64,000 nt of DNA from Stenotrophomonas maltophilia. GTDB lineage: Bacteria > Pseudomonadota > Gammaproteobacteria > Xanthomonadales > Xanthomonadaceae. Both the position numbers and the translations under genes were made by a program. The notes beneath the pieces were generated by a model, which was not told the DNA's origin, did not search any database, and worked only from the letters and a program-made list of their open reading frames with translations. Positions within the stretch are counted from its first letter, which is position 1; the number at the start of each line of letters is the position of its first letter. The stretch lies in NCBI RefSeq assembly GCF_002205165.1, contig NZ_NIVS01000048.1, forward strand, positions 1 through 64,000. Direction: 5' to 3'. Below are positions 16,444-21,908 of the stretch, piece by piece.

Positions 16444-17625
16444 TCATCCCACCCGCTGCCAGACCTGCTCGAGCGGATCCAGTTCGGCGGTTTCCATGTG
16501 CTGTGCGCGCCATCCAAAGCCGCAGACGGCCAACGCCCCTTGCTGGATGGGATCAAGACCGAATCCCCTCTCCAGGTGCTTCTCATTGATGGCGCCAGTG
16601 ATGAAAGCACCAAGGCCCAGATCCGTCGCAGACAGATAAAGGGTCTGCGACAGGTGGCCGGCCTCGAGGGTTACTACGCGGTAACCCTTGGCGTGCCGGC
16701 GATACTTCCAGAAGCTGCGGTCGAAGCGGGGAACCATCGTCACCAGACAATGGGCGTTGGCGAACCAATGCTGCTGGCCGACACTTTCCATGATGAAGTC
16801 ACGCAGAGGCTGGTCCGGCGCGGTCAGCGGCAACAGGCTGTGGGAGTCGGCGAGGTACCGGTACAGACCCGGTGCGATACCTTCAACCTGCTGCACGATC
16901 AGGTAGGCCTCCATTGGATGGAGGCCGCCGCCGGAAGGACTGTTCTTTTTGTGGAAGACAAGATCATCGCCTACCCTGATCTTCGCCTGGGCGGCAAACA
17001 CGCGCCCCAGCATGCGGGTAAACAAGGCCATGGGAAGCGGCCGGCTGTCATCGAAATTGCGACAGGTTGCGCGCCGCTGCAGGAGGGCATCGAAGGCATC
17101 GGGTTCGGCGTGCGGCAACGCAACCGCATCGCCCTGGCCTTCTGATCTCGTCACGGCAGGCGGAGGTCCCAATACGTCGCGCATGCCTGCCGCGGTTTCC
17201 GTTCCGGAATCCTGTGTGTTCTTCACCGCGTCCACCGAATCCCAGCGGGTGAAGGCGTGCAGGATGGCGCCGAGGGGGTGCCAATGGGCAGCCCGCAGGC
17301 GATCGTCATCGCGACGCTGACGCTCAGCGACACTACCGACCGCAGGCGCTTCCATCACCACCAGGCCATGGTCTATCAGCGCGTCCAACTCCAGGCGGGT
17401 CGCACTGCCAAGTGTGTCAACATCTGTCCACAGACTCGGACTGAGCGTTCCCAGCACCTCCCGTTGTGCAGAGGAAACCATGACCGAATCGCCCAGATGC
17501 GGCGCCAGCGCCAGCCATTGGAGAGTGCGTACCATCCCGTTGCCACCCTCCAGCAGGCTCTCAAGCTTGAACGCCACTTGTTCTTGAGATTCGAACATCA
17601 GAATTTCACAACGACGAACACGCAC
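16444..17625 (-). CDS. SagB-like putative peptide-maturation dehydrogenase
   Basis: A ~393-residue protein (GTG start 17625, preceded by GGGGAG). The first ~175 residues are helical and unlike known enzymes. The C-terminal half is a SagB-type FMN nitroreductase: RR..CR.F at 184-191, the hallmark SPSGGGLHPMEAYL at 229-242, FWKYRRHAKGYR at 305-316 and EAGHLSQTLYLSATDLGLG at 321-339. SagB/McbC enzymes oxidise azolines to azoles in ribosomal peptides. From memory, it matches the family named putative peptide maturation dehydrogenase (TIGR04511), which co-occurs with a modified-peptide precursor and a cyclase, both present next door. No YcaO cyclodehydratase is in the window, so its substrate chemistry is open. 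Longer starts (to 17721) would overrun the promoter region of the divergent precursor gene. Confidence 0.8.
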   Translation of the reverse strand: MRVRRCEILMFESQEQVAFKLESLLEGGNGMVRTLQWLALAPHLGDSVMVSSAQREVLGTLSPSLWTDVDTLGSATRLELDALIDHGLVVMEAPAVGSVAERQRRDDDRLRAAHWHPLGAILHAFTRWDSVDAVKNTQDSGTETAAGMRDVLGPPPAVTRSEGQGDAVALPHAEPDAFDALLQRRATCRNFDDSRPLPMALFTRMLGRVFAAQAKIRVGDDLVFHKKNSPSGGGLHPMEAYLIVQQVEGIAPGLYRYLADSHSLLPLTAPDQPLRDFIMESVGQQHWFANAHCLVTMVPRFDRSFWKYRRHAKGYRVVTLEAGHLSQTLYLSATDLGLGAFITGAINEKHLERGFGLDPIQQGALAVCGFGWRAQHMETAELDPLEQVWQRVG

Positions 17626-17803
17626 CACGCTTCTCCCCGTTCGCTGGACCTCGGCCAGCACTTTGATCCATATCGACCAACCGGGCGCCATCTTCATGAG
17701 GTACCCGGCTCGAATCGACACTAAAGACTGCGCCCGACAGGTCGATGTTGGCCTGTGAACCTGAAAACGCTGATGAATATCCGTCCCTACTCAAGGAACT
17801 CCG

Positions 17804-18103
17804 ATGTCTTTGCCGTCCATTGAACCCACCATCGCCCTGGAACTCATCTCCCGACTGGGCAGTGATGATGCATTCCGTACGCTCTTCTCGACGGACCCCG
17901 CCGCGGCATTGATCGAAGTCGGGCTGTCCCTGGACGATGCCACCGCGCTGGAAGTCTGCTGCAAGGTCAACGAACTGGCTTCCAAGGCCGACATTCTTCA
18001 GGCCAAGCAGGATCTCCAGATGATGCTGACGGCGAAAGTGAACCAGATCGTCCCGGCGCTGGATGCCAACCCGGATGGCGGCCACACCCTCAAAGGCCCC
18101 TGA
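17804..18103 (+). CDS. Putative RiPP precursor with nitrile-hydratase-like leader
   Basis: A 99-residue peptide with AAGGA six bases before its ATG. Residues 19-41 (DDAFRTLFSTDPAAALIEVGL) have the look of nitrile-hydratase/Nif11-type leader peptides, whose pattern is roughly FR..L..DP.aAL.e.Gl. The following segment carries a Cys-Cys pair (52-53), an amphipathic stretch (59-75) and a polar tail with Gly-Gly at 92-93 and few modifiable residues after it. From memory it fits the family TIGR04509 (putative modified peptide). It is divergent from the dehydrogenase and convergent with the cyclase gene, whose 3' end overlaps it by 14 bp. The mature product and cleavage site are unknown; if GG is the processing site only HTLKGP would remain. 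Confidence 0.75.
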   Translation: MSLPSIEPTIALELISRLGSDDAFRTLFSTDPAAALIEVGLSLDDATALEVCCKVNELASKADILQAKQDLQMMLTAKVNQIVPALDANPDGGHTLKGP

Positions 18104-20624
18104 TGATCGCTGCGGTGGCGGCGTGTTTCGTGCGGTCGCCGCCCCGCAGTTCCTGCGCGAGTCTGGCAGCGTCATTGCTATCCACGACGTTCATGGTCTG
18201 CATGCAGTAGCCACAGTCCAGCTCGGCGTAGGCCATGCCACGTTGGGTACGAAGGAAATCGGCTTGTTCCAGCGCCTCCTCCTCCCGACCCAATGCGAGG
18301 TACGCCCTCATGGCCGCTACGCGCGTCTGGAAGCGGGCGCTGCCCTGAAGAAACGGCTGGAGTCCGCGCAGGGCCCCCGAAGCGTCCCCACCCAACCGGG
18401 CACGTTCGGCTTGGACGACCGCTTCCATTTCATCAAGCAGTCCACCGCTCGTGCTGCCTCTACGGGTACGCACAGCGTGCAGCACGCGCTCGGCAGTCTT
18501 CGTGTCGTTCAGGCGCAGCGCCAGAATGGACGCTCCCAATGCCACCATGGCGTCATCACTGATGTCCGGGTTTCCCGGATCTGCAATTCTGTGCAGCGAA
18601 CTATCCACTGCAAGCTGGATGCTCGTCCTGGTGGCCTGCTCGTCACCGCTCGCCCAGTGCGCGGTGGCCAGAGGCAACAGGTACAGCTGGCGTGCAAAGC
18701 CAGTGTCCCGCGCCATGGCGTTCAAACCTGTGCTCGCCGCCAGCACTGCGCGGGCCCAATGGCCCTGGTCCGCTGCAATGGAAGTTCTCTCAATTCCCGC
18801 GTACTTATTGTCACGCGCTTTGGCGAGCTCCGCCTCGGCAGCGGCGTAGTTGCGTTGGCTGGCCGATACAGTCGCAAGGTAGCGATGGCTGGTCGCGCGA
18901 CCGCCGGACACTGCCATCTCCAGTGCACGCCGGGCCGCCGGGAAGTCGCCATTGGCCAGTGCAATCCGGCCGAGCTGGTCGTAGGCGACGTTGGACAACT
19001 CGAAGCGACCGTCCGCCGCACGAACCGCAAAGGGCAGCGCCTCCTTGAACCGATTGTCGACAAATAGCCACATTGCCGCGTTGTGTTGCGCCGGGAAGTA
19101 ATCCGGATAGAGTCCCGCCAAGCGCATCCAGCCCTGTGCGGCGTTGCCTTGGTTGGTCAGTGTCGTCGACCATGCCTGCACGTACAGCGCTTCACGCGTA
19201 GGCAAGCGATTCGATAGTCCTTTTACCCGTTCAAGGGCGGCGAACGCGGCATCATTGTCCACGTTGGCGACATGTGCGCGCACCAACCCCATCCAGGCCA
19301 AGGCGAACGTGTCATCGAGCGCCACCGCTTGCTCGTACATGGATAGGGCACCCACGTAATCACCGTCCGCATACCGTCGCTGGCCCAGCGCGTAGGCGCG
19401 AAGGGCATCCATGCTCGACGTGGTCACCAACGGCAGTGGTGCAGAGGCTTCCTTGACGCTGCTCTCCTGCTCACCCAGCTGGTCGCGCAACTGTGTGGTG
19501 ACGCTATCGATGGACGCCAGTAGCGACGCCATCCCCTTTCCTTCTGCGGCAACGACGGCGACCGTTCGTTGTGAGTTCGGCTCGAGGACCTGCACATTGA
19601 TACGCGTGCGACCGCCCACTTCGGCAACCGAGGGAAGCAGCACCAGCCGTGCGCCAACCCGGATCGCAACTTCGGAGGCAAGCGGTGCATCCAGTGGAGT
19701 GGCCGCATCGCGACGCATCATCTCGATGACACTGCGCGCCTTCATGTCGCTGATGACATTGACGTAGCGGGACTGCTCCAGGCTGATCCGGAAAGCCTGT
19801 TGCAGCGAATCGTCCAGCACGGTGTTGCCGGTCAGGTTACGCATGTCGCCGACGACGACCCAGTCGCGCTCGGCAAAGGCAATGGCTGGGTCCGGACGGA
19901 TGAGTGTCCAGAGCACGATGCCGAGAATGCCGAAGAATGCCATCTCCGCAAAAAGCGCACCCGGGTGCAACCACAGCGGTCGATCCAGCCACGCCTTCTT
20001 GGTACTTGAGGGTCGTCGCGTGGGTGACGTGTCATCAGCGGCGACCTGCCAGATCTGCTGGGGATCGGCCATGCCCTTGAAGCGCCAGCGACCGTGCGAC
20101 TTCCATTTCAATGCGTTGGCGCGTTCACCAATATCCGAGCTGCTTCGGCGAGCAAGCGACTCGGCAAGTGCGGACAGCAGGATCTGTCCTGGCCTGGCAA
20201 GCTGCATCAACCGGGCGGCCATCGGCTTGGCCAAGCCTTCGACTTCGATCGGCTTCGCTCCGTGCGCGACGGCCTCGGCACTGTTGCTCCACAGAATGAC
20301 TTCGCCGACATGCAAGCCCGCGCGCACGCGCAGTGGCACGCCCAGCGTTTGCCCCAGTGCATGCAGCTGCTGTTGGTAATCCAGGGCAAAACCCAACGCA
20401 TCGATGGTGCGCTCGAACAACAGAAACAAGCCGTCCGAGCGATCGATCTGGTGTCCATTCCACTGCTGCTGCAACGCCAGCACCAGCCGGTCATGCTCCT
20501 GGAACAGCTCCGCCGCCGCCGCATCACCGATGCGCTCCACCAGGATCAGCGAGTCGCACAGATCGGTGAACAACAGCGCCCGCATCTGCGGGGCCTGGGT
20601 CGACGTTCCGTTGTCGCCGTTCAT
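18090..20624 (-). CDS. Membrane class III nucleotidyl cyclase with TPRs (peptide-system cyclase)
   Basis: An 844-residue protein. Residues ~14-165 are a class III cyclase domain: metal Asp21 (FTDLCDS) and Asp64 (SDGLFLLF), Arg101 (RAGLHVGE) and Arg138 (MAARL). The transition-state Asn expected four residues before Arg138 is Pro134. One membrane helix (~223-242) follows, then a TolB-like segment (~255-390) and TPR repeats to the end. The start 20624 has GGGAGA upstream. It lies 13 nt behind the cNMP-binding GGDEF gene. In X. campestris the pair XC_0250/XC_0249 is reported as a cGMP synthase and a cGMP-sensing diguanylate cyclase (from memory), and this looks like the same pair. It also matches the family called peptide modification system cyclase (TIGR04510). 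Whether it makes cGMP, cAMP or neither needs assay. Confidence 0.82.
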   Translation of the reverse strand: MNGDNGTSTQAPQMRALLFTDLCDSLILVERIGDAAAAELFQEHDRLVLALQQQWNGHQIDRSDGLFLLFERTIDALGFALDYQQQLHALGQTLGVPLRVRAGLHVGEVILWSNSAEAVAHGAKPIEVEGLAKPMAARLMQLARPGQILLSALAESLARRSSSDIGERANALKWKSHGRWRFKGMADPQQIWQVAADDTSPTRRPSSTKKAWLDRPLWLHPGALFAEMAFFGILGIVLWTLIRPDPAIAFAERDWVVVGDMRNLTGNTVLDDSLQQAFRISLEQSRYVNVISDMKARSVIEMMRRDAATPLDAPLASEVAIRVGARLVLLPSVAEVGGRTRINVQVLEPNSQRTVAVVAAEGKGMASLLASIDSVTTQLRDQLGEQESSVKEASAPLPLVTTSSMDALRAYALGQRRYADGDYVGALSMYEQAVALDDTFALAWMGLVRAHVANVDNDAAFAALERVKGLSNRLPTREALYVQAWSTTLTNQGNAAQGWMRLAGLYPDYFPAQHNAAMWLFVDNRFKEALPFAVRAADGRFELSNVAYDQLGRIALANGDFPAARRALEMAVSGGRATSHRYLATVSASQRNYAAAEAELAKARDNKYAGIERTSIAADQGHWARAVLAASTGLNAMARDTGFARQLYLLPLATAHWASGDEQATRTSIQLAVDSSLHRIADPGNPDISDDAMVALGASILALRLNDTKTAERVLHAVRTRRGSTSGGLLDEMEAVVQAERARLGGDASGALRGLQPFLQGSARFQTRVAAMRAYLALGREEEALEQADFLRTQRGMAYAELDCGYCMQTMNVVDSNDAARLAQELRGGDRTKHAATAAIIRGL

Positions 20625-20637
20625 GCCGATCTCCCGA

Positions 20638-21684
20638 TCAGGGTGTGGCGGTCGCTGATCGCGACCAGTGCAATCGGTTGCCGCCCAGCCGCTTGGCTTG
20701 ATACAGCGCATTGTCGGCCCGGGCGTACCACTCGCTCCAGTCGGTCTGCGGGTCGATCAGGCAGACGCCGATGCTGACCGGGCACACATGCGGCACGCCG
20801 TGGGCACGGCCGATCAGGCCATGCACTGCGCTGAGAATGAACTCGGCGGCGTGCTGCAGGCTGTCCTGGTCGGCGCTGCGCAGCAGCAGGCAGAATTCGT
20901 CGCCACCGAGGCGGCAGGCTACGTCCGGCTCGGTGGCCACCGAGCGCAGGATGTTGGCCACGCTCTGCAGCACGCGGTCGCCGGCCTGGTGGCCGTGCAC
21001 ATCGTTGACCTGCTTGAAGTGGTCGCAGTCGATCAGCAACAGACCCTGCGGCGCGCCGTCTTCCTGCGCGCGGCATTCCTGCAGGTACAGGGCCAAGCCA
21101 CGCCGGTTGTGCAGGCCGGTCAGTTCGTCGGTGCGCACCAGCTCGCGGGTGTGGGTGAGCTGATGGGTGGTGACGTAGAGGTTGTCCAGCGCGGTTTCGA
21201 GATCGTGGTTGCGGCGGCGGAGCTGGCGGATCAGCACCTGCTCGTTGCTGACCACGCGCATGATCGTGCGGCGCAGGAAGTAGGCCAGCAGGCCGGGGTC
21301 GCGGTCGACCAGGCGCTGGAAATCCTCGTGGTCCAGTTCCAGCACGATGCTGTCCTGGACCGCACGCGCGCCGGCCGTGCGCTGGTGATCGCCGATCAGC
21401 AGGCCCAGCTCGCCGAAGAATTCATTGGGACCGAGCGACTTCACGACGAGGTCTTCGCCGAAGTCCAGTTCGATGCAGCCGCTGACGATCACATACATCG
21501 TGTTGCCGGCGTGCCCGCGGTGGAACAGATGCGTGCCTGAGGGCAGCTTGCGTTGCCGGCCAAATTCGGAGAACAATGCGGACTCGCCGTTGCTCAGGAT
21601 GGCGTGCACGATCTCAGCCATCGCCTTTCGGTCGATGTCTGGTTCCTGTTCGCACATGATCGCCGCCGCACCCTTGCCGGTCAT
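20638..21684 (-). CDS. cNMP-binding domain GGDEF protein (diguanylate cyclase)
   Basis: About 348 residues. The N-terminal half is a CRP-like cyclic-nucleotide-binding domain (LPSGTHLFHRG, GELGLLIGDHQRTAGARA as the phosphate-binding cassette). A coiled linker (RRRNHDLETALDNL) leads to a GGDEF domain with RTDELTGLHNRRGL and an intact RLGGDEF active site. The inhibitory I-site (RxxD) position reads TEPD, so product inhibition is probably lost. It should turn a cyclic-nucleotide signal into c-di-GMP synthesis, as reported for the X. campestris XC_0249 homologue. The cyclase gene follows after 13 nt. The start is uncertain: GTG 21735, ATG 21684 and ATG 21657 are in frame and none has an ideal ribosome-binding site. 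Confidence 0.85.
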   Translation of the reverse strand: MTGKGAAAIMCEQEPDIDRKAMAEIVHAILSNGESALFSEFGRQRKLPSGTHLFHRGHAGNTMYVIVSGCIELDFGEDLVVKSLGPNEFFGELGLLIGDHQRTAGARAVQDSIVLELDHEDFQRLVDRDPGLLAYFLRRTIMRVVSNEQVLIRQLRRRNHDLETALDNLYVTTHQLTHTRELVRTDELTGLHNRRGLALYLQECRAQEDGAPQGLLLIDCDHFKQVNDVHGHQAGDRVLQSVANILRSVATEPDVACRLGGDEFCLLLRSADQDSLQHAAEFILSAVHGLIGRAHGVPHVCPVSIGVCLIDPQTDWSEWYARADNALYQAKRLGGNRLHWSRSATATP

Positions 21685-21908
21685 TTCCGAACACCCGCTT
21701 TCCAGCGCCCCCTGGTGAGCGATGGAGGATAGCACTCCTCAAAACTGTGCGCCCTATCCCATTTCCGACTTTCGGCCCCCAACATCGTGAAAAGACACGG
21801 GTTCTCCGGTGTCCGACGATGTGAAGACCCGGGTCTGAAGACGGCACCGGGCGGCAGGTCCCCCCGACCGGCCGCCCTGCAGGCCTTCCCTGGCCTCCCC
21901 TCTCCGGG

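Follow-up and report, generated by a model that had tools for sequence, protein, structure and literature searches.

What might a small peptide gene, lying antisense between the genes of a membrane guanylate cyclase and a flavin-dependent peptide dehydrogenase, have to do with cyclic GMP (cGMP) signalling? The question is raised by a 64,000-nucleotide stretch of Stenotrophomonas maltophilia DNA (contig NZ_NIVS01000048.1, positions 1 to 64,000; hereafter the window), where we confirm four genes noted earlier in the region 16444..21684: the dehydrogenase, the peptide, the cyclase and a GGDEF protein with a cyclic nucleotide-binding (cNMP) domain. As judged by comparison with related sequences, the locus joins a predicted output module, comprising the cNMP-GGDEF protein and the catalytic domain of the cyclase, to an exchangeable cassette in which the cyclase's sensor half is combined with the peptide and dehydrogenase. 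We lean, by a little, towards reading it as a peptide-pheromone system, polymorphic and acting through a receptor guanylate cyclase, in which precursor, maturation enzyme and receptor are matched. The swappable nature of the cassette is absent from the original prediction for this DNA and is new here.

We know of no identified input signal for the tetratricopeptide repeat (TPR) half of the Xanthomonas cGMP synthase XC_0250, and literature listings likewise showed none. In Xanthomonas campestris XC_0250 makes cGMP, which binds and activates the GGDEF protein XC_0249 and so raises cyclic di-GMP (c-di-GMP), and the main text of that work leaves the TPR half 'uncharacterised' (PMC3770947).

Modular exchange at the locus

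Distances and trees were calculated for 95 loci in 31 genera (six of 101 loci, the window and 100 relatives, were dropped, as were eight of 161 in later sets); residue numbers are those of the aligned cyclase part, to which 38 is added for the 873-residue frame. With one locus per genus, distances of the catalytic domain follow those of the GGDEF protein (r 0.86). Given the GGDEF protein, the partial correlations of cyclase residues 241–380 are 0.53 with the dehydrogenase and 0.33 with the peptide, those of residues 381–700 are 0.48 and 0.41, and those of the catalytic domain 0.11 and 0.15. A rate effect alone is unlikely to account for this, since conservation immediately past the membrane almost equals that of the catalytic domain (residues 241–300 have a mean distance of 0.31, vs 0.21–0.31 for windows up to 210).

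On the trees the minimum of 30 changes of genus label is seen for both the GGDEF protein and the catalytic domain, against 46 and 54 changes for the two sensor parts, 42 for the dehydrogenase and 51 for the peptide. Peptide-tail types, which are pattern classes of our own definition (8 of the 95 loci unclassed), change 29 times on the GGDEF tree, 31 on the catalytic, 23 on that of the membrane-adjacent sensor part, 13 on the TPR tree and 16 on that of the dehydrogenase. The approximately unbiased (AU) test, run on quick trees of 41 of the 95 loci from six genera, rejected a single clade for g18, the inferred Xanthomonas genus, in the TPR part (p-AU 4e-157) and the dehydrogenase (p-AU 1e-40); the same clade is present at support 100 in the GGDEF tree and 97.7 in the catalytic tree. 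Single clades for g18, g7 and g1 were all rejected in the TPR part and dehydrogenase (p<=3.4e-4), and all three are recovered in the GGDEF and catalytic trees at support values no lower than 96.8. Within Stenotrophomonas, 71 loci form 39 TPR clusters at 70% identity (single linkage), vs 3 catalytic-domain clusters. By these distances and trees the locus is modular: the genera are reflected in the GGDEF protein and catalytic domain but not in the sensor half, peptide and dehydrogenase, which change together.

The exchange can be followed in the DNA itself. Two g18 loci, L051 and L085, have GGDEF and catalytic proteins that are 100% identical as aligned (rounded), with sensor parts 24–41%, dehydrogenases 33% and peptides 26% identical; at the DNA level they share 97.1% identity as far as the sensor and 99.1% identity starting 262 bases past the dehydrogenase domain, and BLAST finds no match longer than 150 bases in the stretch between. 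The window and locus L139 share 92.0% and 94.1% DNA identity on the two sides, around a TPR part of 29% protein identity. Such a block lies between matching DNA in 16 disjoint pairs (left 82.6–97.1%, first right match 73.6–99.1% identical), the right match beginning within or before the dehydrogenase in some of them. Edges were placed by change-point analysis of codon identity in 42 disjoint pairs; those taken from BLAST match ends (16/16 and 30/31 after aligned residue 240) were discarded, as such ends run through diverged stretches. The pairs were chosen for conservation of the GGDEF protein and change in the TPR part (in one set also for a conserved catalytic domain), so that the place of an edge is informative rather than its existence. 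Outside Stenotrophomonas the left edge falls at aligned residues 215–409 in 16/16 pairs, at or beyond the membrane.

In three loci (L058, L134 and L135) an orphan sensor, starting with the transmembrane helix, lies 12–33 bases behind the end of the dehydrogenase domain; it is 32–34% identical to the active sensor of the same locus and 68–72% identical to sensors of congeners; other loci carry extra peptide or dehydrogenase pieces behind the dehydrogenase. Both look like relics of replaced cassettes.

The three orphan sensors are open frames of about 600 residues, which keep the transmembrane helix and have no cyclase domain, and could be decoy receptors instead. Loci L155 and L158 have a complete second cyclase in tandem behind the dehydrogenase, 69–70% identical to the first.

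Constraint on the peptide tail

The peptide was split at a conserved LASK motif into leader and tail, and tail pairs of unequal length were dropped. The ratio of non-synonymous to synonymous differences (pN/pS) in the tail is 0.16 (0.10–0.20) within sensor types (19 disjoint pairs) and 0.51 (0.39–0.64) between them (26 pairs); for the leader it is 0.27 (0.20–0.33) within and 0.37 (0.29–0.44) between. By this measure the tail, of about 25 residues, is the most constrained part of the peptide when the putative receptor is conserved and the least constrained when it differs.

The two parts of the peptide also differ in what they follow. Given the leader and GGDEF protein, tail distance has partial correlations (one locus per genus, then all loci) of 0.42 and 0.50 with the TPR part, 0.40 and 0.29 with the dehydrogenase and -0.06 and -0.13 with residues 241–380; given the tail and GGDEF protein, those of the leader are 0.51 and 0.39 with the dehydrogenase, 0.41 and 0.45 with residues 241–380 and 0.24 and 0.33 with the TPR part. 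Among pairs whose dehydrogenases are at least 85% identical, the median tail distance is 0.00, 0.34 and 0.63 at TPR identities of at least 85%, 60–85% and below 60%, respectively (34, 32 and 9 pairs, which share loci). Within the TPR part, helices assigned by eye from a structural model as inner differ less within types than outer ones (0.051 vs 0.117), and between types the values are 0.401 vs 0.568, a higher ratio. The pattern would be compatible with a binding groove, yet TPR packing could give the same, and we do not use it as proof.

Could linkage alone account for these results? A recombination-prone stretch might be replaced by homologous recombination with no functional matching at all, as the adjacency in DNA of the peptide tail and the TPR end, and the matching DNA flanking the block in the 16 disjoint pairs, would lead one to expect. 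Linkage could yield correlations but would not be expected to yield the reversal in constraint; the opposite order of tail and leader pN/pS within and between sensor types goes unexplained, as does co-retention of the genes in 149/151 genomes (below), and we regard linkage as the least probable account considered here.

A conserved unit tied to the cGMP pathway

The original prediction had named the families TIGR04511, TIGR04509 and TIGR04510, and the dehydrogenase (559 vs 240 bits), peptide (83 vs 34) and cyclase (1093 vs 400), respectively, all exceed the curated NCBIfam cut-offs. Its call of a fourth, cNMP-binding GGDEF protein is borne out by matches to PF00027 (71.9 bits) and PF00990 (137 bits). 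Against the nitrile hydratase leader peptide (NHLP) family TIGR03793 the peptide scores 16.7 bits, below the cut-off of 50.9, making it a relative rather than a member.

Co-occurrence of the three families, also foreseen, is close to complete. Of 247 genomes of the host family, 151 encode a cyclase that scores over its cut-off, 154 a dehydrogenase and 152 a peptide (hand-compiled sets, with dehydrogenase and peptide matches taken at E<=0.001; 149 and 152 genomes, respectively, lie above the cut-offs). The 151 genomes with the cyclase over its cut-off include 150 with the dehydrogenase and 149 with the peptide, and the other 96 include 4 and 3, giving phi coefficients of 0.957 for cyclase-dehydrogenase, 0.957 for cyclase-peptide and 0.983 for peptide-dehydrogenase. 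The order GGDEF, cyclase, antisense peptide, dehydrogenase is found exactly so in 75/101 loci, and in 95/101 once extra peptides, extra genes and an inverted dehydrogenase are admitted; among the six exceptions the GGDEF gene is absent from the stretch read in four and encoded on the opposite strand in a fifth, and the sixth is without both peptide and dehydrogenase. A further Stenotrophomonas batch kept the order in 60/60 loci (61/61 with the window), some of them followed by extra pieces. The peptide is found in 3/274 genomes sampled from the class, all of the host family, and in 43/200 sampled from the order, 12 of them in four other families. Outside the family all four genes occur in 8/12 fragments (from 11 of the 12 genomes), and wherever both genes are present (11/11 fragments) the peptide lies antisense to the cyclase; one more fragment has only a 21-bit piece of cyclase. 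Two loci of genus g23 are expanded: L087 and L088 have ten and five peptide matches, respectively, with one and two cyclases amid several dehydrogenases, and no GGDEF gene in the stretch read.

Toxin-like cassettes are commonly exchanged between near-identical backgrounds, and this counts in favour of the peptide being an antagonistic, bacteriocin-like ribosomally synthesised and post-translationally modified peptide (RiPP), which the sensor half would sense or protect against, with polymorphism arising from strain conflict. The Pseudomonas protein Os1348, which is encoded near a SagB-type gene and influences antibiotic activity (PMC7726476), points the same way. Against it stand the retention of the cyclase in almost every genome with the peptide and the presence of a GGDEF gene in most of the loci examined, and the annotated window genes include neither an exporter nor a separate immunity gene; we consider an antagonistic role improbable.

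The correspondence with XC_0250 and XC_0249 drawn in the original prediction also stands. The cNMP domain of the window matches PDB 5h5o (163 bits), which we infer to be XC_0249 because five residues named in the main text of PMC3770947 fall at the right positions. All five cGMP-contact residues (F73, E90, H98, N145 and E146) are present in the window GGDEF protein; across loci F, E, H and E are found in 153/153 and N145 in 136/153. Seven g18 loci are 88–96% identical to the 5h5o cNMP domain, among them L010, where an 886-residue cyclase has D41, D71, L73, A150, L157 and A161 of XC_0250 by position, and where peptide and dehydrogenase adjoin. The published cGMP synthase and cGMP effector therefore very likely belong to the same unit as the peptide and dehydrogenase. 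The same six activity residues are present in the window cyclase (by eye against L010), which we predict to be an XC_0250-type guanylate cyclase and a maker of cGMP. In L010 D41 sits in the motif VERIGD; going by other class III cyclases, the first metal Asp would be D28 in LLLTDLCDS. D41 has been described as a metal ligand (PMC3770947), and the mutant data hold whichever Asp is the ligand.

Organisation of the window locus

The SagB/ThcOx-like flavin mononucleotide (FMN) peptide dehydrogenase, with an N-terminal and a nitroreductase-fold domain, is encoded on the minus strand at 16444..17619; its frame is open to 17721, with a likely GTG start near 17625–17631 (by eye). Between it and the peptide gene the sequence reads as a divergent promoter region (17632..17803), the start-to-start gap having a median of 145 nt in 89 loci. 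The 99-residue NHLP-related precursor (TIGR04509, 83 bits) is encoded on the plus strand at 17804..18103, antisense to and tail-to-tail with the cyclase gene. An alignment of 95 peptides delimits the leader as residues 1–57 (17804..17974, plus strand), and the C-terminal tail, residues 75–99 (18026..18100, plus strand), is the proposed specificity part on the grounds of its pN/pS and of a distance that tracks the cyclase TPR part. A sequence comparison of the peptide with solved structures turned up nothing similar (best E 1.2). By the coordinates of the open frames, the cyclase and peptide genes overlap at their 3' ends by 14 bases (18090..18103), as they do in 55/95 loci (median -12 nt).

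The membrane guanylate cyclase (TIGR04510, 1093 bits) occupies 18090..20711 on the minus strand as an 873-residue frame, with a likely start at ATG 20624, immediately beyond the GGDEF stop. An AlphaFold model (pLDDT 87.5, pTM 0.65) divides it into a cytosolic class III cyclase domain (residues 39–233; 20013..20597, minus strand), a single transmembrane helix (residues 250–270; 19902..19964, minus strand; a helix in the model, and hydrophobic by eye rather than by a topology program), a membrane-adjacent alpha/beta domain and a TPR superhelix, the last two probably periplasmic. The alpha/beta domain (residues 283–412; 19476..19865, minus strand), placed by secondary structure in the model, co-varies with the dehydrogenase and is usually within the exchanged block; it has no match among the matches listed, which is no evidence of novelty. 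The TPR superhelix (residues 434–872; 18096..19412, minus strand), supported by TPR matches and the model helices, tracks the peptide tail and is the proposed peptide-binding sensor. The XC_0249-type cNMP-binding diguanylate cyclase (5h5o_A, 163 bits) lies at 20638..21735 on the minus strand, for which the ATG start at 21684 put forward in the original prediction is plausible.

Neighbours beyond the four genes were annotated in the window and are metabolic (acyl-CoA dehydrogenase-, carboxylase- and isocitrate lyase-like). A locus of Stenotrophomonas sp. SAM-B, the sole one found when named genomes were scanned with a single-sequence query, is close to that of the window, with a dehydrogenase 97% identical.

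Modification chemistry and regulation

The unit holds no YcaO cyclodehydratase, the gene required of a thiazole/oxazole-modified microcin (TOMM) cluster. YcaO was found in 15/247 genomes, of which 12 also have the cyclase; because it was not found in the other 139 of the 151 cyclase genomes (hand count), azole formation by the usual route is unlikely in most cyclase genomes. The genome of the window has one YcaO away from the locus, where action at a distance is conceivable. This YcaO gene (L110; G000 contig 59, 115270-116250) adjoins a same-strand frame of 275 residues that is azoline oxidase-like by eye, and the two are possibly a TOMM pair unrelated to the peptide-cyclase locus.

No strong shared dyad was seen in 89 intergenic regions between dehydrogenase and peptide genes. 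Sites like those of the cAMP receptor protein (CRP), TGTGA-N6-TCACA, occur with at most one mismatch in 3/89 regions vs 0.35 expected, and with at most two in 10/89 vs 3.3, an excess we judged weak and did not use as support. Its slight presence in the divergent promoter region, along with gene adjacency, is what would be expected if peptide and dehydrogenase were an output, a RiPP-like metabolite controlled by cGMP or c-di-GMP. An output would not require the sensor half to change alongside the peptide, the sites are found in a small minority of loci, and we hold this explanation to be very improbable.

A candidate peptide-receptor pathway

The original prediction had left the peptide as a ligand, a regulator or a product. 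The exchange pattern favours the first of these, with the peptide as a ligand of the cyclase. In the pheromone reading that we favour, the dehydrogenase would bind the NHLP-like leader and, with no YcaO partner, oxidise the precursor; the C-terminal tail would be released, reach the periplasm or the medium and bind the TPR superhelix of the receptor cyclase, and binding would set cGMP and hence c-di-GMP. Since peptide, modifying enzyme and sensor would have to match, they would be exchanged as a set, giving mutually private signals (pherotypes) among related strains. Taken in this way, the locus suggests that related bacteria control cGMP and c-di-GMP by many private peptide signals. The cyclase is more likely a receptor than part of a modification system, contrary to the name of family TIGR04510.

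Several observations weigh against this pathway. The catalytic domain alone restored biofilm formation in the main text of PMC3770947, so the sensor is not required for cyclase activity; it therefore likely regulates the cyclase, and perhaps restrains it. An edge at or beyond the membrane is not universal: in 18/26 Stenotrophomonas pairs the left edge comes no later than residue 205, within the catalytic domain. Part of the co-variation is predicted from linkage alone, the tail-coding and TPR-coding ends being next to each other. When each genus is represented by a single locus, the tail correlates with the dehydrogenase given the TPR part at 0.34, vs 0.25 with the TPR part given the dehydrogenase; the membrane-adjacent sensor part is followed by the leader (0.41) and not by the tail (-0.06); and within Stenotrophomonas the tail correlates with the catalytic domain given the GGDEF protein (0.47). 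None of the 37 pairs with TPR parts at least 85% identical has catalytic domains below 85%, and therefore no recent long-distance transfer was caught.

Nor is a route out of the cell apparent. By eye the peptide has no hydrophobic segment, no exporter was seen among the annotated window neighbours (exporters other than the C39 type were not searched for), and the only C39 peptidase of the genome (L111, G000 contig 20, 7184-7588) lies amid repeat-rich, Asn/Gln-rich proteins, in surroundings that by eye resemble a functional amyloid (Fap) operon. The lack of an exporter or protease among the unit's annotated window genes, and of a hydrophobic segment in the peptide, would suit a non-diffusible partner protein or internal ligand, assembling with the sensor half of its own cell's cyclase and tuning it, with co-variation resulting from assembly of the complex; the NHLP-clan protein Os1348 is a folded 85-residue dimer detected in cells, according to the main text of PMC7726476. 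Such a partner would have to meet a TPR half that the probable topology places outside the cytoplasm, and 39 TPR clusters against 3 catalytic ones in one genus look like signal polymorphism, and so we think a non-diffusible partner unlikely, if deserving of attention.

The pheromone reading would give the TPR half of the Xanthomonas cGMP synthase a candidate signal, maturation enzyme and binding site, and predicts strain-specific communication groups across a large bacterial order. More tentatively, at somewhat less than even chances, the system could be a convergent counterpart of the peptide-hormone receptor guanylate cyclases of animals in the order of Xanthomonas and Stenotrophomonas, with a flavin-modified ribosomal peptide as a hyper-polymorphic ligand, dozens of private types in one genus and social identity expressed in cGMP and c-di-GMP.

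Comparison with known systems

The window cyclase and cNMP-GGDEF protein are orthologous to XC_0250 and XC_0249, whose adjoining peptide and dehydrogenase are absent from the main text of PMC3770947, where XC_0248, XC_0251, XC_0252, 'operon' and 'peptide' go unmentioned; at the level of titles and abstracts we found no open-licence paper joining the peptide-modification families TIGR04509-11 to the cGMP pathway. Three of the four genes are members of these families, the names of which omit both the GGDEF partner and exchange of the sensor half, and which would here gain a testable function. Unlike the azoline oxidases ThcOx, BmdC and McbC, the dehydrogenase is found in cyclase genomes of which most have no detected YcaO (139/151, as above). 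The Os1348 cluster of Pseudomonas sp. Os17 similarly has an NHLP-clan small protein with a SagB-type gene nearby (PMC7726476); it differs in that 'cyclase' is absent from the main text of that paper, and the window peptide scores 26 bits vs a cut-off of 40 for the Os1348 family.

A further parallel is comQXPA of Bacillus subtilis, in which comQ, comX and the sensor half of comP are described as polymorphic together, the cytoplasmic part of the receptor being conserved (PMC6334282, PMC4008528). As in comQXPA, modifying enzyme, precursor and sensor part are polymorphic together over a conserved output part. Unlike comQXPA, the present system occurs in Gram-negative hosts with the peptide gene antisense, the protein families are all different, and the output would run from a guanylate cyclase to a diguanylate cyclase rather than through a histidine kinase.

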